Positions 5,587 to 30,837 of a stretch of DNA of 64,000 nucleotides are shown here, in pieces; the first letter of the stretch is position 1, and every line of letters starts with the position of its first letter. The translations under genes were made by a program, and so were the position numbers. Origin of the DNA: Hydrogenophaga pseudoflava. Lineage in GTDB: Bacteria > Pseudomonadota > Gammaproteobacteria > Burkholderiales > Burkholderiaceae_C. Under the pieces are notes generated by a model. It saw only the letters and a list, made by a program, of their open reading frames with translations, did no database searches and was not told the DNA's origin. The stretch spans positions 186,001 to 250,000 of the forward strand of contig NZ_JAVHJP010000006.1 in the NCBI RefSeq assembly GCF_031020795.1. Reading direction: 5' to 3'.

Positions 5587-5599
5587 GAGCGAACCCGGA

Positions 5600-7027: not shown

Positions 7028-7055
7028 GTTCTTTTCCAGAAATGGGGTTGGACAA

Positions 7056-7073
7056 ACGCCCCCGAAGGGGCGT
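7056..7073 (-). other. Intercistronic hairpin between odhB and lpdA
   Basis: ACGCCCC and GGGGCGT form a perfect 7-bp stem with a 4-base loop (TTCG on the transcribed strand) in the 65-base odhB-lpdA gap. It is followed by GTTTG only, so termination would be weak. An RNA-stability or partial-attenuation role is inferred. Confidence 0.5.
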
Positions 7074-7092
7074 CTGCAAAGTCACTGGTCGA

Positions 7093-8358: not shown

Positions 8359-8402
8359 GTTTGTTCTACCTGGAATGTTTCGAGGGGCGCGGCCCAAGGG
8401 CT

Positions 8403-8426
8403 GCCCCGGCACGGGAAGGCCGGGGC
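8403..8426 (-). other. Intercistronic GC hairpin between odhA and odhB
   Basis: GCCCCGGC and GCCGGGGC pair over 8 G-C bases with an 8-base loop, within the 92-base odhA-odhB gap. No T-tract follows. It probably stabilises or marks processing of the polycistronic mRNA rather than terminating it. Confidence 0.45.
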
Positions 8427-8450
8427 GCGGGGCTCACAGCGCCGGAACGT

Positions 8451-11327: not shown

Positions 11328-11343
11328 TGATCCGCTGACCTCC

Positions 11344-11360
11344 GTTTCCCTCAGGGAAAC
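11344..11360. promoter_or_regulatory. 17-base perfect palindrome next to the odhA ribosome-binding site
   Basis: GTTTCCC TCA GGGAAAC has 7-base arms around three bases and sits directly upstream of the GGAGG of odhA. In RNA it forms a tight hairpin touching the translation initiation region. It could also be a protein-binding site. The function is inferred from position only. Confidence 0.45.
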
Positions 11361-11449
11361 ATTAGCTGGTTAAAACAACCTTCCGCGACACGGCTGAACC
11401 GGTTGGCGGATGCGACAGTGACTTTGGAAGGACCTGACTGCAGCCCGAG

Positions 11450-11478
11450 ATTGTGCCACCACGAGCCCACCCCGGCAA
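11450..11478 (-). promoter_or_regulatory. Candidate promoter of the odh operon
   Basis: On the minus strand TTGCCG (-35) is followed after 17 bases by CACAAT (-10), which is itself preceded by TGG as in an extended -10. This is the best sigma-70-like match in the 246-base gap between arsR and odhA and would give a leader of about 115 bases containing the palindrome at 11344-11360. Confidence 0.45.
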
Positions 11479-11573
11479 ATGAAATGCCAGGGGAATTGCA
11501 TACCAGCTCAGGAAAGTGGCGCAGGATGTTGCTTGCTGGCGAAGAGACCGCCCACACCGTCAGCCGTTGGAAT

Positions 11574-11948
11574 TCAGGCGCCTACGCGCGGGGACAGCCG
11601 CTCGGACGCCGGCACGGCACTGGGTTCGTCCATCTCGATGGCGATCTGCGTGCACACGGTGCGACACAGCGTCACTGCCTTCTCGCTCTGCACTCGGTAG
11701 ATCACCTGTGTGCCTTCCTTGCGCTTGGCCAAGACGCCGGCGCGGTACAGCAGGTTCAGGTGCTGGGACAAATTGGGCTGTGTGGTTTGGATTTCCTGCA
11801 GCAGCTGCGAGACCGACTTCTCCCTGTCGCACAGCGCGCTGAGGATGCGCAGCCGCATCGGCGTGGCGAGCACTCCGAACAACTCTGCCGCCAATTCGAA
11901 CACCCGGACTTTCTCGGTTTGGGCATCCGCCCCGATCATTTGCTCCAT
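11574..11948 (-). CDS. ArsR/SmtB-family transcriptional repressor
   Basis: Small winged-helix regulator of 124 residues. The core runs from ELFGVLATPMRLRILSALC through the recognition helix region TTQPNLSQHLNLLYRAGVL to the wing KRKEGTQVIYRV. There are three cysteines: Cys40, after the first core helix, and Cys95 and Cys99 in the last helix. This layout resembles thiol or persulfide sensors of the BigR/SqrR type (Cys41 and Cys107 in SqrR); that is an inference and no metal site of the ELCVCDL type is present. A palindrome at 11963-11993 suggests autoregulation. No target gene is obvious next to it; odhA lies 246 bases downstream on the same strand. Confidence 0.85.
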   Translation of the reverse strand: MEQMIGADAQTEKVRVFELAAELFGVLATPMRLRILSALCDREKSVSQLLQEIQTTQPNLSQHLNLLYRAGVLAKRKEGTQVIYRVQSEKAVTLCRTVCTQIAIEMDEPSAVPASERLSPRVGA

Positions 11949-11962
11949 GGCTCACCACAAGG

Positions 11963-11993
11963 TTGTCAATATAAGCATGCATGATACTGACAA
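11963..11993. promoter_or_regulatory. Palindromic operator candidate upstream of arsR
   Basis: TTGTCAATAT and ATACTGACAA form an inverted repeat matching at 9 of 10 positions around an 11-base spacer, 15-45 bases upstream of the arsR start. The arms overlap promoter-like sequence on the minus strand (TATATT as a possible -10 at 11968-11973). ArsR-family repressors typically bind such repeats in their own promoter. Confidence 0.55.
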
Positions 11994-12032
11994 GCTCGGA
12001 CAAACCGACACCTTTCATACACCCAGGAGTTC

Positions 12033-12057
12033 AAAAAAAGGCGCCACAAGGGCGCCT
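12033..12057 (-). terminator. Intrinsic terminator of prpE
   Basis: AGGCGCC and GGCGCCT form a 7-bp stem around ACAAG. On the minus strand the stem is followed by seven T. It lies 28 bases after the prpE stop and separates prpE from arsR. Confidence 0.85.
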
Positions 12058-12084
12058 CTTATTTTGAGCAGGAAAAAACAGGGA

Positions 12085-13986
12085 TCAGGATTGCATGTCT
12101 TTGATCTGCTGCAGCGCAGCCGGATCGTCCATGGTGGTCAGGTCGCCCGGGTCGCGCCCCTCGCAAACCGCTTGGATGGCCCGGCGCAGCAGCTTGCCGC
12201 TGCGGGTCTTGGGCAGTACGCTCACGAAGCGCACACGGGCCGGACGGGCGACCGCACCGAGTTGCTCGTCCACCAGCTTCATGACCTCGCCCTCGAGCTT
12301 GAGCAGTACTGCCTCATCGCCAAACAGCGAGGTGTCCTTGAGCACGGCGAACGCCATGGCCACCTGTCCCTTGAGCTGGTCGGCAACGCCCACCACCGCA
12401 ACCTCGGCGATCTTCGGGTGGCTGGAGATGCTTTCTTCGATCTCGCGCGTGCCCAGGCGGTGCCCCGCCACGTTGATCACGTCGTCGGTGCGACCGAGGA
12501 TGAAGTAGTAACCGTCTTGGTCGCGAATGCCCCAGTCGAAGGTGCTGTAGACCTGACGACCCGGCACGCTCGACCAGTAGGTCTTGACGAAGCGCGCATC
12601 GTCGCCCCAGATGGTCTGCATGCAGCCCGGGGGCAGCGGACCCTCGACGGCCACCACGCCCTTGACGTCACCGCCCTCCAGTTCTTCGCCGGTCTGGTCG
12701 TCGAGCAGCTTGACGTTGTAGCCATAGACCGCCCTGCCCGGTGAGCCGAACTTGCTCGGCGCCTTCTCGACCCCGTTGCAGATCGCCAGGATCGGCCAGC
12801 CGGTCTCGGTCTGCCAGTAGTTGTCGACGATGGGTTTGCCCAGTTCGTCGGAGATCCATTTGGCGGTGGGTTCGTCCAGCGGTTCACCAGCCAGGAACAG
12901 GGCCTTGAGCGAGGACAGATCGTATTTCTTGATAAACGAAGAATCGTACTTCTTGAGCACGCGCACCGCCGTCGGTGCGCTGAACATCACCGACACCTTG
13001 TATTTCTCGACCAGGCTCCACCAGATACCGGCGTCCGGGCGGATCGGCAGACCTTCGTACATGATGGTCGCCATGCCACCGATCAGCGGGCCATAGATGA
13101 TGTAGCTGTGGCCGACCACCCAGCCGATGTCGCTGGTGGAGAAATAGGTCTCCCCGGGCTCGCCCATGTAGATGTGCTTCATCGACGCGGCCAGGGCCAC
13201 CGCGTAGCCACCGGTGTCGCGCTGCACGCCCTTGGGCTTGCCGGTGGTGCCGCTGGTGTAGAGCGTGTAGCTGGGATGTGTCGCGTCGACCCACTCGCAG
13301 GGCACGAGCGCGTCCATGACCTTGGCGCGCTCGGTCGCATAGTCGATGTCCCGACCTTCGACCGCGGTGAAGGCAGCCAGGCCACGGTTGACCATCACCA
13401 CCCTGTGCGGCTTGTGAGACGACAGCCGGATGGCCTCGTCCAGCAACGGCTTGTACTCGACCACCTTGCCGCCGCGCGAACCGGCGTCTGCGCTCACGAT
13501 GGCCACCGGCGAAGCGTCCTCGATGCGACTCGCCAGAGAGTGGCTGGCGAAACCACCAAACACCACCGAGTGGATGGCACCGATACGGACGCAGGCCAGC
13601 ATGGCGAATGCAGCCTCGGGAATCATCGGCATGTAGATCAGGACACGGTCGCCTTTCTTGACGCCCTGCGCCTGGAGGATGGCGGCCATGCGCTGCACCT
13701 CGGTGTGCAGTTCGCGGAAGCTGTAGGTCTTCTCGATGCTGGTCTCCGTCGACACGAAGATCAGCGCGTTCTGGTCCGGCCGGTCCTTCAGATGGCGATC
13801 GACTGCGTTGTGGCAGAGGTTGGTCAGGCCACCCTCGAACCAGCGGGCAAACGGCGGGTTGTCATAGTTGCAGACACGATCAAACGGCTTGTGCCAGTCC
13901 ACCAGCTGCGCCTGCTCGGCCCAGAATGCGTCGCGGTCGGTGATCGAGCGCTGGTGAAAGGCGGCGAAGCCCTGCGGGTTGCCCAT
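12085..13986 (-). CDS. prpE: Propionyl-CoA synthetase PrpE (acyl-CoA synthetase family)
   Basis: AMP-forming ligase that converts propionate, ATP and CoA to propionyl-CoA. The 633 residues follow the E. coli PrpE sequence closely, for example NPPFARWFEGGLTNLCHNA near the N-terminus and GRTDDVINVAGHRLGTREIE near the end, which favours propionate over acetate specificity. ANL-family motifs present are the P-loop-like YTSGTTGKPKG, the adenylate-binding DNYWQTETGWPI, and the C-terminal LPKTRSGKLLRR with the adenylation lysine. No methylcitrate-cycle genes are adjacent. A perfect palindrome lies 31 bases upstream and a strong terminator follows. Substrate preference between propionate and acetate remains inference from similarity. 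Confidence 0.9.
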   Translation of the reverse strand: MGNPQGFAAFHQRSITDRDAFWAEQAQLVDWHKPFDRVCNYDNPPFARWFEGGLTNLCHNAVDRHLKDRPDQNALIFVSTETSIEKTYSFRELHTEVQRMAAILQAQGVKKGDRVLIYMPMIPEAAFAMLACVRIGAIHSVVFGGFASHSLASRIEDASPVAIVSADAGSRGGKVVEYKPLLDEAIRLSSHKPHRVVMVNRGLAAFTAVEGRDIDYATERAKVMDALVPCEWVDATHPSYTLYTSGTTGKPKGVQRDTGGYAVALAASMKHIYMGEPGETYFSTSDIGWVVGHSYIIYGPLIGGMATIMYEGLPIRPDAGIWWSLVEKYKVSVMFSAPTAVRVLKKYDSSFIKKYDLSSLKALFLAGEPLDEPTAKWISDELGKPIVDNYWQTETGWPILAICNGVEKAPSKFGSPGRAVYGYNVKLLDDQTGEELEGGDVKGVVAVEGPLPPGCMQTIWGDDARFVKTYWSSVPGRQVYSTFDWGIRDQDGYYFILGRTDDVINVAGHRLGTREIEESISSHPKIAEVAVVGVADQLKGQVAMAFAVLKDTSLFGDEAVLLKLEGEVMKLVDEQLGAVARPARVRFVSVLPKTRSGKLLRRAIQAVCEGRDPGDLTTMDDPAALQQIKDMQS

Positions 13987-14016
13987 GTGAGTCTCCTGCG
14001 TGGTGGATCAAACTGA

Positions 14017-14032
14017 ATTCATAATTATGAAT
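14017..14032. promoter_or_regulatory. 16-base palindrome upstream of prpE
   Basis: ATTCATAATTATGAAT is a perfect palindrome 31-46 bases upstream of the prpE start, in the 107-base gap after the isochorismatase-like gene. Its TTCA-N6-TGAA frame is the same as in the two sites in front of the nearby tetR gene, so it may be an operator for that regulator. It could also contribute a -10 element (CATAAT on the minus strand). Confidence 0.5.
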
Positions 14033-14093
14033 CTCAGACTTTCTGGAGACTGACAAGGCCCTGGCAACGCCAGCGCCCCACCAGGACCACACC

Positions 14094-14690
14094 TCATTTG
14101 ATCAGCGCCTGAATCTCGCGGAAGTCCGGGTGTTCGGCCGAACGCAGCCACTCGAACAGCACCATCTCGGTGGTCACCAGTTCACAGCCCGTGCCCGCGA
14201 GCCTGTCGAAGGCCGCATCACGGTTGCGCTCGGTGCGCGAGGCGCAGGCATCGGTGACCACCCACACATCCATTTCTTCTTCCACCAGATCCAACGCCGT
14301 CTGGAGCAGGCAGACATGAGCCTCACATCCGGCGAGGACCACGGTGTTCCTCGGATGGGCCGCAGCAGACGGCTTCTGGAGGTGTTTGGGCAGGCTGCGT
14401 GCGTTGCCCCCCTTGGCTGCGGGGCGCAGACAGTCCAGCAGACCATCGGGTACGGCACTGAAATGCATCTTGGAGAGCGTGCGCTGGCACAACTCGCGCA
14501 GAGCCGGGTCGTTCTGCCCCAACTTGGAGGGGTTCTGCTCGGTCCCCCACACCGGCACCCGCAGACGCCGGGCCGCCTGGGCCAGCCGGCGCGCATTCGC
14601 CAACACGGACTCGCGCTCCGGCAACGCGGCCATCAGTCGCTCCTGGTAGTCCACCAGAACAAGTTGGGAGTCCGAAGCTTCGAGCAACAT
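14094..14690 (-). CDS. Isochorismatase-like (cysteine hydrolase) family protein
   Basis: Cytosolic hydrolase of the isochorismatase superfamily, YcaC-like branch, 198 residues. The expected catalytic triad is visible: Asp14 in LVLVDYQERL, Lys74 in SKMHFSAV and Cys127 in the segment GCEAHVCLLQTALDL. The substrate cannot be told from sequence; members hydrolyse C-N or ether bonds in small molecules. The ATG at 14690 has AGGA eight bases upstream; an in-frame ATG 19 codons further upstream lacks family similarity. It lies between tetR and prpE, all on one strand with gaps of 72 and 107 bases. Confidence 0.88.
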   Translation of the reverse strand: MLLEASDSQLVLVDYQERLMAALPERESVLANARRLAQAARRLRVPVWGTEQNPSKLGQNDPALRELCQRTLSKMHFSAVPDGLLDCLRPAAKGGNARSLPKHLQKPSAAAHPRNTVVLAGCEAHVCLLQTALDLVEEEMDVWVVTDACASRTERNRDAAFDRLAGTGCELVTTEMVLFEWLRSAEHPDFREIQALIK

Positions 14691-14762
14691 GAAAAAATCC
14701 TGAAACCGTCCGCACGGGCTGCGCGAACCGACCGGCGATTGTGACAAACAGACGCCGTGCGA

Positions 14763-15554
14763 TCACGCGGAGAAGAGATCGCCCTGTCCCGCCACATCTG
14801 CATCCTGCAGGGTAGCCGCCAAAGCCACATCCATCCATCGCTGGAGGCTATGCACAAAACGCGTTTCCATCAGCGCCTGACCCTCTCCCCGTTTGGGGCC
14901 CTGCAGCACCAGCAGACCCAGCCCGTAGGCCAGCACCTCGTCGTGCAACTGCTGAGCGGCATCCGGCGCCAGACCGCACGCCTGAAGGGTTTCGAGGCAG
15001 GGCTGGAGGGCAGCGGCCAGGCGGGCCAGCAACACCGACGCAGGCCCGCCCGTCTCGCCCGCCGCATCCGGCAGACCGTGTCCGCCATGCAGGACCAGCT
15101 GCAGCCGCTGGGTATCGCCCGCCAGCCAGGCCCACCACGCCACCGAGCGCTCGATGAACAGGCCCCGCGCCTGCACGACTTGCACCGAAGACACCGGACC
15201 GCCTTCCCGCCGCGATCTGGTCGGACGCTCGCCGCGCGGCGCCTTGATGCCCGCCACCAGCTCGGCCAACTCCTGTACCACGCGCTGCTGCAGCGCAGAC
15301 AGGATCGCCTCCCTTCCAGGGAAATAGGCGTAGAGCGCTCCGGCGGTGTAACCGGCGCGCTGTGCCAGTTGCCGCATGTTGAAGCCCTGCCCGCCTGCCT
15401 CCTGCCAAAGGGCCCAGGCCACATCCAGCAGTTGCTGCCGCCGCTCGTCCCCGAAGCGCTGTTGCCGCGCCTGGCGATCGGCCATGCGTTGCTGCTGTTG
15501 GCGGAGTTGCTCCGGGCTCAGGACCGGTGTGATGGCATCGAATTTGACCGACAT
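14763..15554 (-). CDS. TetR/AcrR-family transcriptional regulator
   Basis: 263-residue regulator, longer than a typical TetR protein because of a Gln/Arg-rich N-terminal extension (about residues 15-40). The helix-turn-helix is residues 57-78 (FNMRQLAQRAGYTAGALYAYF), followed by the usual basic GREAIL. The C-terminal ligand domain is Ala/Leu-rich and not assignable to a known ligand class. Two tandem palindromes lie 31-65 bases upstream and are likely autoregulatory operators. It is divergent from an NlpC/P60 gene and upstream of the isochorismatase-like gene and prpE, which may be targets. Confidence 0.88.
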   Translation of the reverse strand: MSVKFDAITPVLSPEQLRQQQQRMADRQARQQRFGDERRQQLLDVAWALWQEAGGQGFNMRQLAQRAGYTAGALYAYFPGREAILSALQQRVVQELAELVAGIKAPRGERPTRSRREGGPVSSVQVVQARGLFIERSVAWWAWLAGDTQRLQLVLHGGHGLPDAAGETGGPASVLLARLAAALQPCLETLQACGLAPDAAQQLHDEVLAYGLGLLVLQGPKRGEGQALMETRFVHSLQRWMDVALAATLQDADVAGQGDLFSA

Positions 15555-15584
15555 TTCTCTTGGCGAAGCCTGGTTATGCTCATG

Positions 15585-15619
15585 GTTCGATTATATGAAC
15601 ACAGTTCATTTATCTGAAC
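15585..15619. promoter_or_regulatory. Two tandem 16-base palindromic operators of tetR
   Basis: GTTCGATTATATGAAC at 15585-15600 and GTTCATTTATCTGAAC at 15604-15619 agree at 13 of 16 positions, each an inverted repeat of the form GTTC-N8-GAAC, with three bases between them (19 bases centre to centre). The arrangement suits two TetR dimers binding close together in front of tetR. The junction itself also forms a perfect 15-base palindrome, ATGAACACAGTTCAT. Confidence 0.65.
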
Positions 15620-15825
15620 ATAATAGATCAATTTTTTATGAGTTTTGTAGAACAAAACCGCAACAGACCAATGAGATTGCATTCTTTCCTCCGAACAAAG
15701 TACAAGTGATCAAACATCTGATGGCCCATCGAAGCCATAAAAAAGCCAAAAAATCCAACAGAATCAAACAACTGAACGACAAAGCTCGCTTGACTTGGCA
15801 GCAAGGCTTCGCGTAAGCTGCTTCG
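15620..15825. other. AT-rich divergent intergenic region
   Basis: This stretch between the tetR operators and the NlpC/P60 gene is clearly richer in A and T than its surroundings (runs such as ATTTTTTATG and AAAAAAGCCAAAAAAT). It should carry the promoter of the plus-strand gene, but no convincing -35/-10 pair stands out. A plus-strand open frame starts at the ATG at 15595 inside the operator and ends at 15816; it encodes 73 residues with a Lys/Arg-rich tail (RSHKKAKKSNRIKQL). I cannot tell whether it is translated; it has no Shine-Dalgarno sequence. Confidence 0.35.
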
Positions 15826-16389
15826 ATGCGTTTTTTCTGCGTCGTTGCTCTCCTTCTCGGATGGTCCTTGTGCCAAGCGGCCCCCACCGACCAGGCGCCT
15901 GACGAGATGGCAAGGATGCTGGAAGAACGCGGTGTGATCGCCCGCCTCGGCTCACAACTTCAGCAGGCCCGCAGCGACGTGGGGGAACGCGCCTCGGATC
16001 TGGTGATGCGAGCAATGGGATTCCTGGGGGTGCCCTACCGCTACGGCGGCAACAGCGAGGACACCGGGTTTGACTGCAGTGGCCTGGTCAGGGCCGTCTA
16101 TGAACAGTCCTTCGGAAAGATCCTTCCCCGGCGGGCCGACCAACAGGCGGCGGCCACGGAGGTCATCGACCGCAGCGACCTCAAACCCGGCGACCTTGTC
16201 TTCTTCAACACCATGAGGCGCGCATTCAGCCATGTCGGCATCTACCTAGGCGAGGGCAAGTTCATCCACGCGCCCCGCGCTGGCGGTGCAGTGCGGGTGG
16301 AGGACATGCGTGTGGCCTACTGGCAGACCCGATTCAACGGCGCGCGCAGGGTCCCCATCAGCGCACCGGACACCACCAGCAGCCCTTGA
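15826..16389 (+). CDS. Secreted NlpC/P60 (C40) peptidoglycan peptidase
   Basis: Likely periplasmic murein endopeptidase cleaving D-gamma-glutamyl-diamino acid bonds in peptide stems. Of 187 residues, the first 18 form a signal peptide ending near CQA-AP. A short helical linker follows, then the C40 domain: GVPYRYGGNSEDTGFDCSGL with catalytic Cys84, FSHVGIYLGEGKFIHAP with His136 and the polar third residue His148. No LysM, SH3 or lipobox is present, so it is a minimal enzyme of the Spr/NlpC size class. It is divergent from tetR and converges on the oxygenase gene. Confidence 0.92.
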   Translation: MRFFCVVALLLGWSLCQAAPTDQAPDEMARMLEERGVIARLGSQLQQARSDVGERASDLVMRAMGFLGVPYRYGGNSEDTGFDCSGLVRAVYEQSFGKILPRRADQQAAATEVIDRSDLKPGDLVFFNTMRRAFSHVGIYLGEGKFIHAPRAGGAVRVEDMRVAYWQTRFNGARRVPISAPDTTSSP

Positions 16390-16440
16390 TCCCGGCTCCT
16401 GGCAGATCTCTTTCCTGCCCCTCGCGCGGCCTCACCCCCG

Positions 16441-16465
16441 AAAAAAAGGCGCCCCGTTGGGCGCC
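16441..16465 (-). terminator. Intrinsic terminator of the 2OG-Fe(II) oxygenase gene
   Basis: GGCGCCC and GGGCGCC pair over 7 bases around CGTT; on the minus strand the stem is followed by seven T. It lies between the convergent NlpC/P60 and oxygenase genes. The A7-GGCGCC start is the same as in the prpE terminator at 12033-12057. Confidence 0.85.
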
Positions 16466-16487
16466 CTGACAGAAAGAAGGCAGGCAC

Positions 16488-17342
16488 TCAGCCGCGCTTC
16501 TGTATGGTGCGCTTGAAGTAGCGTTCACGCACACGGCGCGCCGTACGCCAGAGCACCGGAGGGGCAAAGTCCTGGCCCAGGCGCCACATCACGCCGGAGA
16601 AGCTTTCTTCCGGCCGCGACTTGAAGATGGTGGTGTGGATGCCATCCGCCTCCCCCTTGGGACGTCCATTGGTGTAGTAGTACAGCGCCAGCGACTTGCG
16701 GGTCATGTCTTCCGGGCAGTTCAGAGGGTCGGGATGCCCGTGGAAAGAGTCGCTGGTGGTGGTGAAGATCGCCAGCCGATTGAACACCGGCAGGATCTTG
16801 TCACCGCACACCTTTGTATCCTTGTCCCACATCTCGAGGTACCCGCCGTACTCCTCTTTCCAGTCTTTGTTCAGGTACAGCAGCACGTTGATGCGGCGGT
16901 CCAGGAAGGTGCTGTCGTGCTTGTTGAAGTCGGCGTGCAGCTTCAGGAGACCACCTCGGCGGATCTGGTGCAGGCCGCCGCCCCGCAGCAGCGGATCGGG
17001 AATCAGGTTGTCGATGCCGGTGAGTTTCTCCAGGAACTGCAGAAACGGGATCGAGTGGAACTGGTAGAACAACTGGCGGGTGACCGGGCCGAACTGGGTT
17101 TCGTCGGCACACACCAGCTTGATCTCGGTCTGGCGGTTGTAGTTGTGCCAGTCGATGTCGGCGGGCTTGGGGAACTCTGCAAGCACCGCCTCGGCCACAT
17201 CCGGAGGCAGGAAGTTGTCGAAATGGATGTGGGGAAATGGATCGCCCTTGGCGTACCGCTCCGCGTTATCCAGTGCCAGTTGGCGGTACTTGGGATCGTC
17301 AAAAACAAAACGATCGCTCAGATCCACGGTGGACATGTCCAT
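16488..17342 (-). CDS. 2-oxoglutarate/Fe(II)-dependent oxygenase, prolyl-4-hydroxylase-like
   Basis: Predicted mononuclear iron hydroxylase of 284 residues, cytosolic. The facial triad is visible: His136 and Asp138 in LLKLHADFNKHD, and the distal His201 in SDSFHGHPDPL. Arg215 in TRKSLALYYYTNG would bind 2-oxoglutarate. The double-stranded beta-helix strand INVLLYLNKDW precedes YGGYLEMWD, as in P4H-type enzymes found in polysaccharide loci. GGAG sits too close to the first ATG (17342) but well spaced for the ATG two codons later (17336), so either may be used. It lies downstream of the polysaccharide/kinase operon on the same strand, after a 305-base gap. Confidence 0.85.
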   Translation of the reverse strand: MDMSTVDLSDRFVFDDPKYRQLALDNAERYAKGDPFPHIHFDNFLPPDVAEAVLAEFPKPADIDWHNYNRQTEIKLVCADETQFGPVTRQLFYQFHSIPFLQFLEKLTGIDNLIPDPLLRGGGLHQIRRGGLLKLHADFNKHDSTFLDRRINVLLYLNKDWKEEYGGYLEMWDKDTKVCGDKILPVFNRLAIFTTTSDSFHGHPDPLNCPEDMTRKSLALYYYTNGRPKGEADGIHTTIFKSRPEESFSGVMWRLGQDFAPPVLWRTARRVRERYFKRTIQKRG

Positions 17343-17647
17343 GCGCTCCTCAGGATGGGTCGGTTCAATCCGACAAACCCGTCGATGCTAGGCTGCAAGA
17401 CTTAAGGTGCGTTTAAGCGAGCGTTGCTCCAGAGGGACACGGGGTCTTGCCCGTGACATCCGTCCGGGGCAGCACCCGCCCACCGCCTGGTTTTCCGTTG
17501 CCTGTTCGCAACGGAAGAGCGCCCCGCTGAACAACCAATGTTGAGAAGCGTTCTCAGGTTTTAAGCGCTGGATGAGACATGACTTTGGCCTCATTCTCAA
17601 AACGCATTCGCATTCTTGAGAGCCAAGCCATTAGAGAAGGTGCGCGC
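17343..17647. other. Gene-free 305-base stretch with three inverted repeats
   Basis: No gene is recognised. It holds a 9-bp hairpin TTCCGTTGC/GCAACGGAA (17493-17516), a perfect 15-base palindrome TGAGAA-GCG-TTCTCA (17542-17556), and TCTCAA/TTGAGA arms (17595-17621) just after the histidine-kinase stop. The last two could form the end of the kinase transcript but have no T-tract. The part near 17343 must contain the oxygenase promoter; no strong -35/-10 pair was found. Confidence 0.5.
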
Positions 17648-19801
17648 TCACGTGGATGGCAAGGCGATGCAGAAGGTGGCGCCCCGGCCAGGAGCGGCCG
17701 TGGCAGCCATCTGGCCGCCATGGCGGTGCACGATGCGCTGCACCGTCGCCAGGCCGATGCCGATGCCCGGAAACTGGTCTTCGCGGTGCAGGCGTTGAAA
17801 CGGCTGGAACAGACGGTCGGCGTGGGCCATGTCGAACCCCGCACCGTTGTCCGTGACGCAAATGCCCTGAAGTCCGTTCGCTTCGCCGGCGTGCACGCGG
17901 ATCTCGGGGTCTGCGGTCGCGCCGGTGTACTTCCAAGCGTTGTCGATCAGGTTGGTCATCACGGAAGCCAGCATGCGCTCGTCACCGACGACCACCAGCC
18001 CGTTCTCGACCGAGACACGCACCCGCCGCCCCGACTCATCGGCCAGTTGCCCCAGCCTCTGGCGGGCCAGCGCGGACAGGTCCACCCGGTCGTGGCGCAG
18101 CTCGCCGCGGTTGCTCCTGGACAGCGCCAGAATGCCCTCGATGAGCTCGCCCATGCGTGCGGCGGCCTGATGGATCCGGTCCAGATAGACCCTGGACTGG
18201 ACCGGGAGGCTCTCGCCAAAGTCCTCCTGTAGCGCCTGCGAGTAGCCACTGAGCGCGCGCAACGGTGCGCGCAGATCGTGCGAGACGGCGTAGGCGAAGG
18301 TTTCCAGTTCCCGGTTGGCGGCGCTGAGCTCGGCGGTGCGTTCGGAGACGCGGGCTTCCAGCGTGGCATTCATCTCCCGCAGCGTGGCCTCTGCGGACTT
18401 GAGCGCATCGATGTCGGTGTGGGTGCCCAGCATGCGCAACGGCCGCCCATCGGCGGACCGCTGCTCGATCTGTCCCAGAGAGAGGATCCACTTCCAGCGC
18501 CCGTCCCGGGTGCGCAGGCGGAACTCGACGCGGTAGGACTCCTCGCGACCCGCCAGATAGTCCTCCAGCAGACTGGCGGCACGGGCTTGGTCATCCGGGT
18601 GTAGTCTCTGGCGCCACGACACCAGGGACTCACGGAAATCGGCCGGGTCGTGTCCGAGCATGGCGGCGTACTCCGGACTCACGGTGGCTTCACCGGTTTC
18701 CAGATTGAGGTCGTACAGCCCCTGGCTGGCTGCGGCCAGGGCCAGGCGCAGGCGCTCCTCACTGTCGTGAAGGGCCAATTCAGTGGCCCGCCGGCCGCTG
18801 ATATCAAGAAATGTCACCGCGCACAGCCCCTCACCTGCTCGGAAAGCCGACACCGACAGAAAGGTGCCCAGGTGCTCGGACCCCTGCTCGAACTGCCTGG
18901 GTTCACCCGTCAGTGCGACCCTTCCATAGGTGCCGATCCAGTCCGCCCTGTCGTTCTCGATGCCGGGCAACACCTGCGTCAGCCGCTGCCCCGTGACGTG
19001 GGCCGGATCGAGTCCGGTGACGTCTGCAAACTGCTGGTTGGCGGCGAGGATCAGCAGATCCACCGGAGTCCCCTGCCCGTCCTGCACCAACTCGAACAGG
19101 ACAAAACCGGAGTTCATGTTTTCAAACAAGGAGCGATAGCGGGCCTCGGACTCGATCAGCCGCTGCTTGGCCTGGTTGCGCTCTGTGACGTCGCGCGCCA
19201 TACCGAAGGTGCCATGGATATGTCCTTGCGCATCGCGCAACGGCCCCTTGGTGGTCAGAAAGACCCGCGGCCCCTGGGCCGTGTCCAGGCGCTCCTCGTA
19301 GGTCTCCACCCGGCCGGACGTCAGCACCCGCCGGTCGACGACCCTGATCTGTTCCGCCTGCCCGGCAGGAAAGGCCGCACCGTCGTCCTGGCCCAGCATG
19401 GCGTCGGCGGGCCGGCCCATGTAGCGGGCCGCGGCGTCGTTGACCAGCAGGTAGCGACCCTGTTCGTCCTTGGCGAAGATCGCGTCACCGGAGCTTCTGG
19501 CAATGGCCGTCAGCAGATCCTGCGCCCTCGCCTTTTCTTCCGCCTGGGCCTGTTCGCGCCTGTGGGCAGCATCAAGCTGTCCGACCAGTTGCCGGACCAG
19601 CACGTACAGCAGCAGCGTGGTGACCGCGACAAAGAACCAGCCCTTGAGCATGCTGGCACGCACCAGCGCCTCAGGGTCGTGCCACAGCAAGCCCATAGCG
19701 CGGTCCGACAGCAGAATCCACAGACCTGCAAACGCGGCATACACCAGCGCCACCCTCAGGGCACCGCGCACCAGATCAACCCGTTGGTTTGATGTGTTCA
19801 C
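17648..19801 (-). CDS. Membrane-bound multi-PAS sensor histidine kinase
   Basis: Orphan histidine kinase of 717 residues. Two membrane helices (about 14-32 and 53-70) with almost no periplasmic loop are followed by a helical linker, three PAS domains (starting near SSGDAIFAKDEQGRYLLVND, RYRSLFENMNSGFVLFEL and AAASQGLYDLNLETGEATVS), a coiled coil with ARVSERTAELSAANRELET, the HisKA box AYAVSHDLRAPLRALSGY (His508) and an ATPase domain with NLIDNAWKYTG, VTDNGAGFDM and GIGIGLATVQRI. There is no receiver or output domain and no response regulator nearby. The GTG start at 19801 overlaps the stop of the glycosidase gene (GTGA), so it is translationally coupled to the polysaccharide genes. The longer open frame upstream is antisense-like shadow of that gene. 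Confidence 0.92.
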   Translation of the reverse strand: MNTSNQRVDLVRGALRVALVYAAFAGLWILLSDRAMGLLWHDPEALVRASMLKGWFFVAVTTLLLYVLVRQLVGQLDAAHRREQAQAEEKARAQDLLTAIARSSGDAIFAKDEQGRYLLVNDAAARYMGRPADAMLGQDDGAAFPAGQAEQIRVVDRRVLTSGRVETYEERLDTAQGPRVFLTTKGPLRDAQGHIHGTFGMARDVTERNQAKQRLIESEARYRSLFENMNSGFVLFELVQDGQGTPVDLLILAANQQFADVTGLDPAHVTGQRLTQVLPGIENDRADWIGTYGRVALTGEPRQFEQGSEHLGTFLSVSAFRAGEGLCAVTFLDISGRRATELALHDSEERLRLALAAASQGLYDLNLETGEATVSPEYAAMLGHDPADFRESLVSWRQRLHPDDQARAASLLEDYLAGREESYRVEFRLRTRDGRWKWILSLGQIEQRSADGRPLRMLGTHTDIDALKSAEATLREMNATLEARVSERTAELSAANRELETFAYAVSHDLRAPLRALSGYSQALQEDFGESLPVQSRVYLDRIHQAAARMGELIEGILALSRSNRGELRHDRVDLSALARQRLGQLADESGRRVRVSVENGLVVVGDERMLASVMTNLIDNAWKYTGATADPEIRVHAGEANGLQGICVTDNGAGFDMAHADRLFQPFQRLHREDQFPGIGIGLATVQRIVHRHGGQMAATAAPGRGATFCIALPST

Positions 19802-21477
19802 GACACCTCGCTGACCGGCTGCAACAGCAGCAGCCAGTCGCCGTCGCCGGCCGCGTTCCTGGCGGGTGGTGTGGCCTTCAGGCAGGTTCCTCGCAAAACG
19901 AAGTCTGCAGGAAGGGTCTCGAAGCTGGTCGGATCCACCCAGCGCCCCTTCAGGGGCTCCGCCACACCCCTCAGATCCAGCGTGAAGGCCCGGTTTTCGA
20001 TGGTGTAGGCGAGCACCGTGGACCGGGCGTCGGCCACCCCCACTGCGATGGGATCGGGCGAAGTAGGCCGCCACCCGAACTTGAGCAGCAGCCGTTGCAG
20101 GCGCGTGCTGCGAGGCAGGAAGCGCTCTCGACGACCGGGCTGGGGGAGCGGCGCGAACCCGTGCCACGGCAGGGTGGCGAGGAACGACCGGGCCAGGCCG
20201 ATGTGGCGGGCGCCAGGCAACTGCATGGCCTGCGGCCACGGCAGGTTGCCCCAGCAGGAGCCTGACGGCGACGGCCCGAATGGTCGCTGTCCGGTGTTGA
20301 CCTGCCAGATCCCGTTGGCGCCGTAGGTGTGTCCGGCCAGGCCGCTGCCGAGCGCATGCGCCCAGAAGGCCTCGCGCGCGTCGCGCGCCGTGACGGTGGG
20401 GTGGATATCCAGGGCTTCGTATCGGGACTCCCCGCTGATCACCGGCATGCGGGGCTCGGCGTTCCAGCCATCCTGCGCACGCCGCGCGTGGTGCAAGGTG
20501 GGCTGCCCGTGACCGGTCTGCTGCATCTCGAAGTCGAGCAAGCCCACGTCCGTGACCGATTCGCGGGCGCTGGTGACCGGGTGCGTGGAGATCAGGCGGT
20601 CAAAGGCGTTATGCCGGCGAATCTGGCGGATCACCTCGGTCCATTCCGTGCGCAGCCGGGCCCGCGAGGCGTCTTTCTGCAGAGGACCTTCCAGGTACCA
20701 CGGCATGGTCTGCTCGCCGGCCGCCACCCAGACGACGGGCAGGGCCCCCCAGCGCGCGATGAGGTGGCGCCAATGGCGCTGCATGTTGTCCAGACCGATC
20801 ATGGGCAGGTAGTAACCCCAGGCCCCCAGAATGCACGGCACCAGACCCTGCTCGACCAGGTGAAAAATCCGCTGGTCCGCCTCGTCAAAAAAGGCCGTAT
20901 TGATCCGGCCCAGGTCGGGCTCCCAGCTGAAGCCGCTTTCACTCAGACCTCGCTCGTCGAACAGCGGCATGTCCGGGTACAGACCGGCGACCAGCTGGAT
21001 CAGATTGAACCCGCGCTCCTTGCGGTTGCGCGCCAGCGCCTGGAAATCATCCGGCCAGGAGAGGCGGCCGCACAGGCCCATCCACCAGGTGTCGCCCAGC
21101 CAGAAAAAGGGCGTGCCATCGGTGTGGCAGAAGTGCCGCCGGTCCTCGGCCACCCGGATGCCGCCATGCCGGTACAGCGGGTTGTCACCCTCATAGGCCG
21201 TGACCTCGACCACCCCTGTCTGGTCATGCAGGCCTGCGTTGCCCGCGTCGCTGCAGCGGGTGGTGAAGCGATGGACCCCGGGCTCGGCGGATGAATACCG
21301 CACGCACCAGGTGTCTCCTCCGCGCCAGAACGCCGGCACCTCCAGAATCCGCTGACCGGGCGAGACGAACACCACGTCCAGCTGCACGTCCCTGAACGGC
21401 TCCGGGTATGCGGCGCCGGATTGGAAGCGGATCTCGACCGCCTTGTTCTGATGGGTACTGAGCGTCACGTGGTTCAC
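19798..21477 (-). CDS. Apiosidase-like (DUF4038) glycoside hydrolase without signal peptide
   Basis: 559-residue predicted glycosidase with three parts in order: a DUF5060-type beta-sandwich (about 10-80), an apiosidase/DUF4038 barrel (about 115-420) containing DGTPFFWLGDTWWMGL and VPCILGAWGYYLP, and a C-terminal Collagen_bind_2-like domain (about 460-559). Likely catalytic acids are Glu255 in VAAGEQTMPW and Glu350 in VISGESRYEAL, by analogy with GH140. Characterised relatives are secreted plant-pectin enzymes; this one starts directly with the sandwich and has no signal peptide or membrane helix. The GTG at 21477 overlaps the stop of the glycosyltransferase gene, and its own stop overlaps the kinase start. 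That context suggests a role in making or editing a surface glycan, which is inference. Confidence 0.85.
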   Translation of the reverse strand: MNHVTLSTHQNKAVEIRFQSGAAYPEPFRDVQLDVVFVSPGQRILEVPAFWRGGDTWCVRYSSAEPGVHRFTTRCSDAGNAGLHDQTGVVEVTAYEGDNPLYRHGGIRVAEDRRHFCHTDGTPFFWLGDTWWMGLCGRLSWPDDFQALARNRKERGFNLIQLVAGLYPDMPLFDERGLSESGFSWEPDLGRINTAFFDEADQRIFHLVEQGLVPCILGAWGYYLPMIGLDNMQRHWRHLIARWGALPVVWVAAGEQTMPWYLEGPLQKDASRARLRTEWTEVIRQIRRHNAFDRLISTHPVTSARESVTDVGLLDFEMQQTGHGQPTLHHARRAQDGWNAEPRMPVISGESRYEALDIHPTVTARDAREAFWAHALGSGLAGHTYGANGIWQVNTGQRPFGPSPSGSCWGNLPWPQAMQLPGARHIGLARSFLATLPWHGFAPLPQPGRRERFLPRSTRLQRLLLKFGWRPTSPDPIAVGVADARSTVLAYTIENRAFTLDLRGVAEPLKGRWVDPTSFETLPADFVLRGTCLKATPPARNAAGDGDWLLLLQPVSEVS

Positions 21478-22634
21478 CTGTCCCCGCGCGCCAGCCGACG
21501 CGCCTCTTCGAGCATGGGCGCGTCGCCGTAGCGCTCGATCAGTGATTCCGTGATCTGCGCCGTGGGTCCGCTCAGCCACATCGGCGACTTCTTCAGAAAG
21601 CCAAAACCCTGTTCGGGCAACGACCAGTGCGGCAAGGCATAGGCCGGCCCGGTGGCGGCCGTGGCCCAGAGAATGAAGCGGCGCAGCGCCTGCGGATCGG
21701 CCGCGGACCCGGGGTGCGCGGTCAGCGCCTGCTGTTCTTGCCGCAGCCGGGTGTCCTCGGGGATGACCAGGTTCGCGGCCAGTTCGCGCAACTGGGCGGC
21801 GTCCATGCGCTCCAGGTGCTGATCGAACCGGGTGATGTCCAGCGTTTCCGCGTGGCGGTAGCCTCGGTCGATGACCCAGCGGCTGAGGCCCACCTCGCCA
21901 CGGCGAATCGTCTCCAGCTTGTCCGCCGTGAGCGTCAGGCCCTGCCAGAACTTGCGGAAGCCCGGGTCCTTCAGGATGCGCACGCCGAACAGCAGTGCGA
22001 AGGAGCAGTAGTGCAGCTGCGGCGTGCCTGCATCGGGCACCCAGGGCCGCCCGCGGCCCGGGTCCGCCAGGAAGTCCAGCCAGCCGTCGTTGGACACCGC
22101 CCCCACCAGATCCATGTCCAGCGGCTCGGCCTGCGCTAGCCAGTCCGCCGTGGCCGGCACCGGGAACCACGCGGAGTCGTTGGCCATCAGCAGCCGGTCG
22201 AGCCTGGGCAATTCGTCAAGGGCCATCAGCACGCCCTCCCGGTAGGCGCCAAAGTCGTAGCCGTAGTTGGGCCGCTCCACCAGCCGCCAGCACAGCGGTC
22301 GCAAGCGTTCGCGCTCCTGCGGTGCCAGCGGCAGGTTGCTGACCACCAGCGGGACATAGCCCTTGCGCGCCAGGTAGGCCAGCGACGAGACATGGGACTC
22401 CTGCAGCCCAAGGCGTGGGTACATGACATACACCGCACAGCGCCGCTCGGCCGTCAATGCGCCGGCGGTGGTGCGCACCCGGCGCCGGAGCCAATGGTCG
22501 TGCCACAGGTTGCCGAAGCAGTGGTTGACAAGCAGGCCGGGCAACCGCCGCACCCGGCTCCAGCGCCAGGCCAGATGGTCGCGCAGCCGGGTAAGCCAGC
22601 GGCCGGCGGTCTGCGCGTGTGAGTCCAGCCCCAT
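21474..22634 (-). CDS. RgpF-type (rhamnan synthesis F family) glycosyltransferase
   Basis: 386-residue cytosolic protein of the rhamnan synthesis protein F family, whose members act in rhamnose-rich polysaccharide assembly. Recognisable segments are YVMYPRLGLQESHVSSLAYL, the family hallmark YGYDFGAY (residues 124-131) and LLMANDSAWFPVP (148-160), where Asn152-Asp153 resemble a sugar-nucleotide metal site, followed by GAVSNDGWLDFL and LHYCSFALLF. The ATG at 22634 lies 18 bases from the flippase stop. The gene ends in GTGA, coupling it to the glycosidase gene. The transferred sugar is unknown. Confidence 0.85.
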   Translation of the reverse strand: MGLDSHAQTAGRWLTRLRDHLAWRWSRVRRLPGLLVNHCFGNLWHDHWLRRRVRTTAGALTAERRCAVYVMYPRLGLQESHVSSLAYLARKGYVPLVVSNLPLAPQERERLRPLCWRLVERPNYGYDFGAYREGVLMALDELPRLDRLLMANDSAWFPVPATADWLAQAEPLDMDLVGAVSNDGWLDFLADPGRGRPWVPDAGTPQLHYCSFALLFGVRILKDPGFRKFWQGLTLTADKLETIRRGEVGLSRWVIDRGYRHAETLDITRFDQHLERMDAAQLRELAANLVIPEDTRLRQEQQALTAHPGSAADPQALRRFILWATAATGPAYALPHWSLPEQGFGFLKKSPMWLSGPTAQITESLIERYGDAPMLEEARRLARGDR

Positions 22635-22652
22635 GTTGCGCCTCGGTGCGGC

Positions 22653-24098
22653 TCAGGACACCGAGCGCCGGAGCATGGGCAGCACCAGCCGGTGGCCCAG
22701 CGGCGCAAACACCGCCACCTCCATCAGTCCCAGCAGCATCAGGCGCACGAACGGATGCTGCCCGGCCACCCAGGCCAGTTGGTGCACGAACCACCAACCC
22801 AGGGCCGAGGCTCCGATCATCAGGAACAGCAGGAGGCTCTCCATGCGCAGATTGCGCAGGCCCAGCTTCCAGCCCAGGCACTGGCTCGTCGCCCCGGTGA
22901 CCACCTCGGCACTGAGCACCGCCAGCACGGCCGTCTCGATGGAGTAGTCGAACTGGAGGTAGAGCCCGAGGAACAGCAGGAACGAGAGCACCTTGACCGC
23001 GCTGACGATGGCGATCCACTGCGGTTTGCCCATGGCCATGAAGGCCGCGCCGTAGATGCCGCTGAGGCTGCTGAACCAGACGCCCATGGCCAGCAGGGGC
23101 AGGAAGTCGCCTCCTTTGGCGTAGCGGTCGTCGTAGGCCAGATCGAAGAAGCTGCTGGCCCCGGTCACCAGCAAGACCACCAGAAAGGTCACCACCAGCA
23201 TCAGCGGCACGCGCGTGCGCCGGAAGGCCTCTTTCAGGGGCACCCCGTGGTCCAGCATGCGCGAGTACCAGGGGAACACGATGGAGGACTGCAGCGTCCC
23301 CACCAGCACCGCCACCATCAGCGACAGGCTGGTGGCGATGGAATAAACCCCCACCTCGGCCAGCGGGAAGATCGCAGCCAACAGCACACGGTCGATCTGC
23401 AGCGCCAGGAAGGAGATCATGGTGCTCAGGAACACCCACTTGCCGAAGCCGAAGATCGCTTTCACCGAGTCGCGGTCGAGCCGGAACCGGTCGGTCATCC
23501 CCGACAACATCGCATACGACAGCCAGACCCGCAGCCCGCTGCTGACCACACCTGCGATCGCCAGCGCATACACCGACCGCAGGTACCATGCCAGCCCGAC
23601 CATCAGCACCGCGTTCAGCACCTGCACCAGGATCTCGATCTTGGTCATGCTGGCGATGTCCATCCGGCGGGCCGCGGTGAGCATGCGCGAAGACTGAAAG
23701 CCATCGGCGATGGCCCCAAGGGCCACCAGCGGGATCAGCCAAAGCAGCTCGCGGGCCATCGGGTCGTTGGCGCCATAGATGTGGGCCATGGGCCACGCCA
23801 AGGCCGTCGCACCGACGAACAGGATCCCCCCCCGGATGACCTGCAGTGTCCAGGCGGTCTGCAGGAAGATCGGCTCGTCACCGCGCGGGTTCTGCACCAC
23901 ACTGGGCTTGAGCCCGAGGTCGGAGAACATCGCCAGACCCTGCATCACGGCCGCAACCAAAGCCATCAGGGCAAAGGCTTCTTGGAATAACAGAGAGGCC
24001 AGAGCAATGTTCGATGCCAGACGGATGATCTGCCCGCCACCAAAGGCGATGACGATCCAGAGCGTCCCGGTCCGGGCACGGGCGGAAATGTTGGCCAT
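22653..24098 (-). CDS. Wzx-like oligosaccharide flippase (polysaccharide transporter family)
   Basis: Inner-membrane protein of about 481 residues with 12-14 hydrophobic helices, of the Wzx/PST (MOP superfamily) type that flips lipid-linked oligosaccharides to the periplasm. The N-terminal TGTLWIVIAFGGGQIIRLASN and the following FSDLGLKPSVVQNPR are typical of the family. The frame extends 15 codons to a TTG at 24143, but the ATG at 24098, with GAGG upstream, begins exactly at the conserved N-terminus. It is the first gene of the four-gene operon flippase, glycosyltransferase, glycosidase, histidine kinase. No polymerase or chain-length gene is present in the window. Confidence 0.87.
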   Translation of the reverse strand: MANISARARTGTLWIVIAFGGGQIIRLASNIALASLLFQEAFALMALVAAVMQGLAMFSDLGLKPSVVQNPRGDEPIFLQTAWTLQVIRGGILFVGATALAWPMAHIYGANDPMARELLWLIPLVALGAIADGFQSSRMLTAARRMDIASMTKIEILVQVLNAVLMVGLAWYLRSVYALAIAGVVSSGLRVWLSYAMLSGMTDRFRLDRDSVKAIFGFGKWVFLSTMISFLALQIDRVLLAAIFPLAEVGVYSIATSLSLMVAVLVGTLQSSIVFPWYSRMLDHGVPLKEAFRRTRVPLMLVVTFLVVLLVTGASSFFDLAYDDRYAKGGDFLPLLAMGVWFSSLSGIYGAAFMAMGKPQWIAIVSAVKVLSFLLFLGLYLQFDYSIETAVLAVLSAEVVTGATSQCLGWKLGLRNLRMESLLLFLMIGASALGWWFVHQLAWVAGQHPFVRLMLLGLMEVAVFAPLGHRLVLPMLRRSVS

Positions 24099-24325
24099 AG
24101 CGGCCTCGCCAACATGCGCGACGGGTGTCACTGAATCGGTCAAGCAGCACTCCCAGGTGCCACATCATGAGCAGCTTGCAATCGCACCATTGGATACATC
24201 ACGGTTGGTTCTGGTGCTCGGGCAGGCACCCTGTTGCGCTCAGACGAATAAGAAAGTTCACCTGAGCGGAGCAAATTATCGCGAAGATTTCCCCTCCAGC
24301 GCGGTCAAGGCAAGACGCCCACGAC

Positions 24326-24360
24326 AAAACGCCCTCCGGAACACATGATCCCGGAGGGCG
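24326..24360 (-). terminator. Intrinsic terminator of the aceE-aceF-lpdA operon
   Basis: CGCCCTCCGG at 24330-24339 and CCGGAGGGCG at 24351-24360 form a perfect 10-bp stem with an 11-base loop. On the minus strand it is followed by TTTTG. It lies 53 bases after the lpdA stop. The 227 bases from here to the flippase start must hold that operon's promoter; a GATAAT at 24275-24280 is the only -10-like element I see. Confidence 0.8.
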
Positions 24361-24412: not shown

Positions 24413-26236
24413 TTACTTCTTGCTCGGAGGCAGGTCCGTGCAGGACCCGTGTGCCACCTCCGCCGCCATGCCGATGCTCTCGCCCAGCGTGGGGTGCGGG
24501 TGGATGGTCTTGCCGATGTCCACCGCGTCCGCGCCCATCTCGATGGCCAGCGCGATCTCGCCGATCATGTCGCCGGCGTGGGTGCCCACCATGCCGCCGC
24601 CCAGGATCTTGCCGTGGCCATGGGCCTCGGGCGAATCGTCGAACAGCAGCTTGGTGAAGCCTTCGTCGCGGCCGTTGGCAATCGCGCGGCCTGAGGCCGT
24701 CCAGGGGAACAGGCCCTTCTTGACCTTGATGCCCTGCGCCTTGGCCTGGTCCTCGGTCAGGCCCACCCAGGCCACTTCGGGGTCGGTGTAGGCCACACTC
24801 GGGATCACGCGGGCGTTGAAGGCGGCCGCAGCCAGTTCCTTGTTGCCCTGCAGTTCACCGGCGATGACTTCCGCCGCCACATGCGCCTCGTGCACCGCCT
24901 TGTGCGCCAGCATCGGCTGGCCGACGATGTCGCCGATGGCGAAGATGTGCGGCACGTTGGTGCGCATCTGGATGTCGACGTTGATGAAGCCGCGGTCGGT
25001 CACCGCCACGCCGGCCTTGTCGGCGGCGATCTTCTTGCCGTTGGGCGTGCGGCCCACCGCCTGCAGCACCAGGTCGTAGGTGCCCTCGCTCTTCGTGCCG
25101 TCCAGGCCCTCGAACTGCACCTTGATGCCTTCGGGCGTCGCCTCAGCCCCGACCGTCTTGGTCTTGAGCATGATGTTGTCGAAGCGGCCCTTGTTCATCT
25201 TCTCCCAGACCTTGACCAGGTCGCGGTCGGCGCCCTGCATCAGGCCGTCCATCATCTCGACCACGTCCAGGCGGGCGCCCAGCGTGCTGTACACCGTGCC
25301 CATTTCCAGGCCGATGATGCCGCCGCCGACGATCAGCATCTTCTTGGGCACGCCCTTGAGCGCCAGCGCGCCGGTCGAGTCCACGATGCGATCGTCCTGC
25401 GGGAAGAACGGCAGGCGAACCGCCTGCGAACCGGCGGCGATGATGCACTTCTTGAAGGCCACGACCTTCTTGCTGCCGGTCTTGTCCTGGCCGGTGCCCG
25501 TCGTCTCTTCCACTTCGACGTGGTTCGGGCCGACGAAGGCACCGTAGCCGCGCACGGTGGTGACCTTGCGCATCTTGGCCATGGCCGCCAGGCCGCCGGT
25601 CAGCTTGCCGATGACCTTTTCCTTGTGGGCGCGCAGCTTGTCCACGCTCACCGTGGGCTTGCCGAACTCGACGCCCAGATCGCCCAGGTGCGAGACCTCG
25701 TCCATCACCGCGGCCACGTGCAGCAGCGCCTTGGACGGGATGCAGCCCACGTTCAGGCAGACTCCACCGAGCTGGGCGTAGCGCTCGACGATCACGACCT
25801 TGAGCCCCAGATCGGCGGCGCGGAAGGCAGCGGAATAGCCGCCAGGGCCGGCGCCGAGCACCAGCACGTCGCAGTCGATGTCGGCCGAGCCGCCGAAGCT
25901 GGCGGCCGTGGGGGCCACGACCGGCGCAGCGGCCGGAGCCGCGGCGGGCGCGGCAGCAGACGCCGGTGCCGCGGCCGGCGCGGGTGCCGCCGCAGCGCCC
26001 TCCGCGTCCAGCACCAGCACGACCGAGCCTTCGCTGACCTTGTCGCCCAGCTTGACCTTGAGCTCCTTGACCACGCCGGCGTGCGACGAGGGAATCTCCA
26101 TCGAGGCCTTGTCGGACTCGACGGTGATGAGGCTTTGCTCGGCCTTGACGGTGTCGCCCGGCTTGACCAGCAGTTCGATGACCGCGACTTCGTCGAAGTC
26201 GCCGATGTCGGGAACCTTGATGTCCATGAGTGCCAT
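24413..26236 (-). CDS. lpdA: Dihydrolipoyl dehydrogenase (E3) of pyruvate dehydrogenase, with lipoyl domain
   Basis: E3 subunit that reoxidises dihydrolipoamide of the pyruvate dehydrogenase complex. The 607 residues begin with a full lipoyl domain (Lys43 in [13 protein letters not shown]), an Ala/Pro linker to about residue 115, then the flavoprotein: [15 protein letters not shown], redox disulfide [17 protein letters not shown]-binding [32 protein letters not shown] and the C-terminal [15 protein letters not shown]3 with its own lipoyl domain is known from betaproteobacterial PDH complexes. The first 60 residues nearly repeat those of AceF, so the domain probably came by duplication. Last gene of aceE-aceF-lpdA, followed by a strong terminator. 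Confidence 0.96.
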
Positions 26237-30634: not shown

Positions 30635-30837
30635 GGCTGTCTCCTGTGGGTTTGAAATAAAGCTTACGGCGGTGATTCCGCAGTGTCACGGATTTTTCCA
30701 CAGATCCCTTTCAATTTCAACATGTGCTTGTTAATTTCTTTATATGAAATACACAAATGCAAATTGTGTAGCGTTTGACGCGCGCGCCGCCGCTCCGGAT
30801 GCCCTTATTTCGGGGGCCGCCCCGTACACTCGACCGG
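30635..30837. promoter_or_regulatory. Divergent control region between aceE and the sensor kinase
   Basis: About 200 bases, AT-rich in the middle. It contains an inverted repeat ACACAA-N7-TTGTGT at 30751-30769 and TATATGAAAT beside it. The promoters of both aceE and the kinase must lie here, but no unambiguous -35/-10 pair was found for either. It is the most likely target of the adjacent FixJ-type regulator if that regulator controls aceE. Confidence 0.45.

Follow-up and report, generated by a model that had tools for sequence, protein, structure and literature searches.

A flippase, glycosyltransferase, glycosidase and sensor kinase operon of Hydrogenophaga as a probable stepwise composite

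A probable composite operon in a variable slot

We analysed a 64,000-nucleotide stretch of a Hydrogenophaga genome (the window; G000:C19:186001-250000 of a 4.98-Mb assembly coded G000), in which a minus-strand unit of four genes at 17648-24098 encodes, in order, a flippase, an RgpF-like transferase, a glycosidase with DUF5060 and GH140-like domains, and a three-PAS histidine kinase. Our preferred reading, to which we give a probability of about 0.62, is that this operon is a composite, put together in stages within the H. flava/pseudoflava group, in a variable slot bounded by lpdA and an NlpC/P60 gene, with the flippase and transferase serving an exopolysaccharide system in trans. This reading draws on gene order, overlaps, an exopolysaccharide cluster in which no flippase was found, conflicting trees, the spacers of sister genomes and a predicted fold; from these we infer the service in trans, the direction of events, and the activity and substrate of the enzyme. 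The original prediction for this stretch had proposed a dedicated module in which the kinase, made in step with the glycan genes, senses glycan export or the state of the envelope while a cytosolic glycosidase edits or recycles the glycan. A flippase–RgpF–glycosidase unit and a looser link between glycosidase and kinase survive from that proposal; the dedicated, kinase-coupled module is not supported.

An exopolysaccharide cluster with no flippase match

Comparisons were made across 67 Hydrogenophaga genomes, many of them incomplete (44 reach 90% completeness with no more than 5% contamination); the sister genomes that carry the operon are H. pseudoflava (G409, locus L018) and H. flava (G280, locus L019). 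Gene names such as wzc and wzx are labels for what we take these genes to be from their family matches. In all three operon genomes an exopolysaccharide cluster extends from wza to wzy, followed by an inverted AMP-ligase/acyltransferase gene, with no match to a flippase or rgpF in the fetched 19.5-kb regions or in a further 14.5 kb of the window genome. Relatives have a fuller arrangement: in G435, G452 and G446 the order is wza, an unassigned open reading frame (ORF), wzc, tyrosine kinase, wzy, flippase and rgpF, the pair standing last, and in G415, G412 and G442 a flippase follows wzy with no rgpF match. The inverted gene is 77% identical to the gene that follows rgpF in G435. Since the cluster shows no flippase gene in the three operon genomes, the operon flippase is the candidate Wzx. 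It is the sole PF01943 match in H. pseudoflava; the window genome and H. flava have one more each (42.8 bits in the former), which sits in an apparent second exopolysaccharide cluster, its genes assigned by eye from ORFs. For PF13440, each of the three genomes has another weak match of 32-33 bits, above the cut-off, and the window genome also has one of 20.6 bits. The apparent second cluster of the window genome, with a flippase of its own, occupies positions 2964-17817 of locus L230 (G000:C21).

The operon flippase passes PF13440 (126.3 bits, cut-off 23), matches PF01943 at 66.9 bits and stays below the NCBIfam cut-offs of PRK10459 (67.8 of 273 bits), TuaB (63.9 of 580) and Oglyco_Wzx (38.1 of 720). 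Its partner matches PF05045 over the cut-off at 55.1 bits, covering 170 of 503 profile positions; a structure model of this protein built from three sequences was unusable (pLDDT 44.2), and comparison with solved structures returned a single chance-level match (E 0.87). As in Wzx/Wzy-dependent assembly, a MOP flippase, a transferase, Wzy, Wzc, a tyrosine kinase and Wza are present in one genome; unlike there, the flippase is unlinked and shares an operon with a glycosidase and a kinase. Among NCBIfam models, those of the XrtA/PEP-CTERM-type exopolysaccharide export locus (pepcterm_export, pepcterm_ChnLen, pepcterm_TyrKin and pepcterm_ATPase) give the best matches to the Wza, Wzc, tyrosine-kinase and ATPase genes of the distant cluster, all four below their cut-offs (132.1/180, 248.9/278.85, 168.2/230.65 and 285.2/324.5 bits), and the window genome differs from that locus in having its flippase and RgpF elsewhere and a kinase that is not PrsK.

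The flippase and the cluster disagree in their phylogeny. The operon flippase is 77% and 71% identical to those of G435 and G452, against 54-55% to those of G412 and G442, whereas Wzy is 70% identical to its counterparts in G412 and G442, against 47-48% in G435 and G452. In trees of nine sequences each, the operon flippases group with G435/G452 (support 100/100), and Wzy and Wzc with G412/G442 (100/99 and 95/95). Judged from these sequences, the conflict suggests that the flippase may have been replaced from another lineage rather than moved out of its own cluster. The differing history, together with the location apart from the cluster, would also suit a flippase and transferase that make a separate minor glycan, such as an O-antigen decoration, independently of the cluster at 127.5 kb distance. 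We regard this as unlikely: no polymerase or export gene is among those identified at the operon locus, the cluster shows no flippase gene in the three operon genomes, and six relatives keep theirs beside wzy.

At the thresholds used, adjacent flippase–RgpF pairs occur in 6 of the 67 genomes, three of them with neither the glycosidase nor this kinase alongside (kinase matches below 45% identity were dropped from the locus table). The original prediction had taken such unaccompanied pairs, if found in nearly all relatives, as evidence against itself; they make up half of the pair-bearing genomes, which counts in part against the prediction.

Proposed assembly in the lpdA–NlpC/P60 slot

In G413, lpdA and NlpC/P60 stand 66 bp apart; in G452, G454, G399 and G459 other cargo lies between them and the distance is 1.9 to 9.0 kb; in loci L114, L115, L117, L119, L120 and L121 no NlpC match lies within 12.5-13.6 kb downstream of lpdA. 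As distance and cargo both vary, the operon sits in a variable slot. The glycosidase is found in eight of the 67 genomes: besides the window genome, H. pseudoflava (85% identity to the window copy), H. flava (83%), G442, G435, G412 and G432 (67-69%) and G402 (56%). In G442, G435, G412 and G432 the glycosidase is directly preceded by a gene for a PF07995-like, sugar-dehydrogenase-like protein of 439 residues (PF07995 and a hydrophobic N-terminus were determined on the G442 copy, to which the other three are 90-95% identical); in G402 an 18-kb locus matched the glycosidase alone. A block with a Crp-type regulator is present at the locus in G442, G435 and G412, and behind lpdA, with no glycosidase match, in G399, G416 and G454; a search of the window and 21 fetched loci gave no match to it in the window itself, nor at the loci of H. 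pseudoflava, H. flava and G432.

Order, strand, coordinates, domains and GTGA overlaps of the four genes were confirmed from the sequence and Pfam, with one caveat. The glycosidase start that corresponds to the sisters' ATG is the second GTG (21468), 5 nt past the rgpF stop, so that the first GTGA is possibly not the start in use. The rgpF–glycosidase junction is tight in all three operon genomes, with a 4-nt overlap in both sisters and, depending on the start used in the window, the GTGA overlap or a 5-nt gap there, and flippase and rgpF are separated by 18 nt in the window genome. A weak consensus scan, a method ill-suited to a GC-rich genome, found no sigma-70-like promoter inside the operon, in agreement with the proposed absence of internal promoter space. 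Because a strong terminator follows lpdA and about 230 bp lie between it and the flippase start, the operon starts anew with its own leader, the flippase-proximal part of which looks alike by eye in all three operon species. The gene-neighbourhood search that the original prediction had called for recovers a flippase–RgpF–glycosidase unit that is tightly packed in the three genomes found with it; the four-gene order was found in the window genome, H. pseudoflava and H. flava (3 of 67).

The kinase and its junction with the glycosidase

The kinase combines PAS_4/PAS_8/PAS_3, HisKA and HATPase_c domains (Pfam), and in its core it is similar to solved structures of histidine kinases and bacteriophytochromes. 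Two hydrophobic segments (residues 13-31 and 51-69) are separated by about 20 residues, which leaves no room for a periplasmic sensor domain, and neither gene adjoining the kinase is a response regulator; both observations speak against a sensor of glycan export or of the envelope. As a candidate PrsK it was rejected, scoring 80.1 bits against a TIGR02916 cut-off of 300 through the kinase core only, with none of the three genomes above the cut-off.

Orthologues matched over both halves (61-87% identity) are present in six genomes, namely the three operon genomes, G442, G435 and G432 (the last split over two ORFs), all at one shared locus in related genomes. This amounts to 6 of the 8 glycosidase genomes and 0 of the 59 others among the matches listed (Fisher p 2.8e-7, the genomes not being independent); 16 candidates were scored per genome, down to about E 1e-78, and further orthologues are possible. 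G412 and G402 have the glycosidase without a kinase orthologue. Among the three operon genomes, the GTGA overlap with the kinase is found in the window genome only. The glycosidase stop and the kinase GTG are 138 bp apart in H. pseudoflava and 139 bp apart in H. flava; the two spacers align with each other, and the earlier kinase starts that open frames would allow within them (at most 84 and 27 bp earlier, respectively) would still leave a gap. In G442 and G435 the kinase stands 5.0 and 5.6 kb from the glycosidase, with opposite-strand genes between them that include a Crp-type regulator. We envision a separate kinase transcript in the sister species; with the overlap absent from both and the kinase distant in G442 and G435, the proposed production in step with the glycan genes finds no support as that of a dedicated module.

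Two rival explanations turn on this junction. In the first, the kinase senses the envelope or its glycan, the glycosidase edits or recycles the glycan of the flippase and RgpF, and all four genes are co-regulated. The tight packing in the window, the association of kinase and glycosidase across genomes and the missing signal peptide of the glycosidase would all fit, yet we hold such a module to be quite improbable: across relatives neither the order (3 of 67) nor the kinase overlap (1 of 3) is kept, no flippase–RgpF pair is present at the G442 and G435 loci where the kinase stands apart, and the kinase has neither a periplasmic sensor domain nor an adjacent response regulator. In the second, glycosidase and kinase form a conserved pair for glycoside catabolism and the sensing of a substrate or redox state, into which flippase and RgpF were inserted as passengers. 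Both genes share the locus in 6 of the 67 genomes, three of them without flippase–RgpF there, and the upstream partner elsewhere is sugar-dehydrogenase-like. We consider this possible but doubtful, since G412 and G402 have no kinase orthologue, the two genes lie apart in G442 and G435, the match in G432 falls in two ORFs, and outside the genus the kinase matches near the glycosidase are at most 28% identical among the loci listed (the first 25 of 80).

Kinases 50-54% identical to that of the window, with a longer N-terminus (925 residues), are found at loci L105, L106 and L108; at L105 and L108 an ORF that looks CheY-like by eye adjoins them.

A GH140-like glycosidase without a signal peptide

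The glycosidase matches PF16586 (DUF5060) at 56.5 bits and PF13204 at 213.2 bits, well over the curated PF13204 cut-off of 26.5, and its predicted structure has the GH140 fold. By alignment its catalytic carboxylates are E255, a Glu in place of Asp, and E350, both invariant in the eight Hydrogenophaga copies and in all 21 rows of alignment A2, where the numbering is one lower. In BT_1012 the catalytic pair is Asp187/Glu284, and Glu replaces Asp at one catalytic position in 17.3% of PF13204 members, as reported in PMC4032388. Compared with the GH140 apiosidases BT_1012 (5msy, 3kzs) and 8t9w, the window enzyme has Glu where theirs is Asp, an extra N-terminal DUF5060 domain and no signal peptide; it is 18% identical to the putative glycoside hydrolase BVU_0362 (4n0r). 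The absence of a signal peptide, noted in the original prediction, is borne out by a simple hydrophobicity measure, which found no signal-like N-terminus of the kind expected for a secreted enzyme in any of the eight Hydrogenophaga copies; upstream of the glycosidase start, the reading frame extends back within rgpF. Its probable activity is the cleavage of a small glycoside within the cytosol. We see it as an older resident of the slot, which would be transcribed with whatever sits upstream. That it proof-reads or recycles lipid-linked repeat units before flipping, having joined the operon when the flippase came to sit outside its cluster, appears to us very unlikely; if true, it would amount to glycosidase quality control for Wzx/Wzy polysaccharides.

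PF13204 exceeds its cut-off in 6 of 399 genomes of a family-level sample. Among 80 loci outside the genus no recurrent neighbour of the glycosidase was found, the next largest clusters comprising at most 7 loci; the ORF picker missed AT-rich loci, and in eight loci that were re-read no match to the kinase lies near the glycosidase at E 1e-4. A plasmid search of 102 records gave at most 27.5% identity among the best 20 listed. The arrangement is not described in the literature searched (apiosidase/GH140, Wzx/Wzy, PEP-CTERM and Hydrogenophaga, with few subscription journals and including PMC4032388 and PMC1569441).

A proposed series of events

In the composite reading, the RgpF-like transferase would complete a lipid-linked repeat unit while it is still cytosolic; the flippase would turn this unit outward, and the Wzy, Wzc, tyrosine kinase and Wza of the distant cluster would polymerise and export the product. 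The glycosidase would have been in the slot before the flippase–RgpF pair arrived. In the simplest series, loss of the Crp-regulator block would have brought glycosidase and kinase together, and the kinase, until then a neighbour with its own leader, would have joined last, when a small deletion in the window species produced the GTGA overlap.

Several points weigh against the composite reading. The co-occurrence of kinase and glycosidase is strong enough that a chance assembly needs a shared locus and shared descent to explain it, and the H. flava stretch with the kinase spacer has no promoter-like site in the weak consensus scan, which speaks against a kinase promoter of its own. The flippase of G446 groups with G412/G442 despite the rgpF (45% identical) after it, so that rgpF accompanies more than one flippase lineage. 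It is also conceivable that the flippase serves a different glycan, and the direction of events, be it relocation, gain or loss of a cluster copy, is read from nine genomes. As only three genomes have the order, selection could still be keeping it together as a unit; the composite reading itself is drawn from genome sequences.

If the composite reading is right, successive insertions and deletions can produce what looks like a neat signalling operon, and an overlap by itself is weak evidence of joint function. The operon would also provide a natural case of a Wzx flippase encoded apart from its Wzy system and of a different phylogenetic lineage, a case relevant to the strictness of flippase–substrate pairing. 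The remaining interest lies in this unlinked, foreign flippase–transferase pair, which three species have joined to a cytosolic GH140-like enzyme, and in the group of GH140-like enzymes without signal peptide.

Coordinates and further observations

Table 1. Features of the operon and its surroundings (window positions unless a contig is given).
Feature	Position	Strand	Basis or remark
MOP/Wzx-type flippase, 481 aa	22653..24098	-	PF13440, PF01943, tree grouping
RgpF-like glycosyltransferase, 386 aa	21474..22634	-	PF05045
Putative cytosolic DUF5060 + GH140-like glycosidase	19798..21477	-	559 aa; 556 aa from GTG 21468
Two-TM (transmembrane), three-PAS sensor histidine kinase, 717 aa	17648..19801	-	Pfam domains, hydrophobicity
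Glycosidase–kinase GTGA stop/start overlap, 4 nt	19798..19801	-	sequence
rgpF–glycosidase GTGA overlap, 4 nt	21474..21477	-	sequence; alternative start 21468
Intrinsic terminator 3' of lpdA	24330..24360	-	13-bp stem; H. flava L019 has the same site
Operon leader region	24099..24329	-	between lpdA terminator and flippase
lpdA (E3 of pyruvate dehydrogenase), upstream slot edge	24413..26236	-	
2OG-Fe(II) oxygenase, next downstream gene	16488..17342	-	PF13640, 64.3 bits
NlpC/P60 gene, downstream slot edge	15826..16389	+	PF00877, 110.8 bits
Exopolysaccharide cluster of the window genome	G000:C19:75289-81119		127.5 kb from operon flippase

Around the slot, H. pseudoflava (L018, 13355-16586) carries three extra opposite-strand genes, one of them mandelate racemase/enolase-like by eye, in the space that separates lpdA from the flippase. 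In G442 (L020, 12828-13526), pieces matching lpdA residues 351-607 lie near the glycosidase, and a full lpdA follows at a distance of 4.9 kb; the pieces may have been left by an insertion at the lpdA end. G416 (L115) has a small lpdA piece too. In G454 (L123, 10296-11073) two adjacent pieces match the Crp-type regulator, whose gene may be interrupted.

Elsewhere in the window, a PAS kinase and a FixJ-like response regulator (233.9 bits, cut-off 255) are encoded at 30775-34019, divergent from aceE. On two proteobacterial contigs outside the genus (L147, 8613-11638; L143, 8656-11629), a cytosolic glycosidase follows an ORF that looks leucine-rich by eye, with a 4-nt overlap between the two, as the ORFs were called, in L147.

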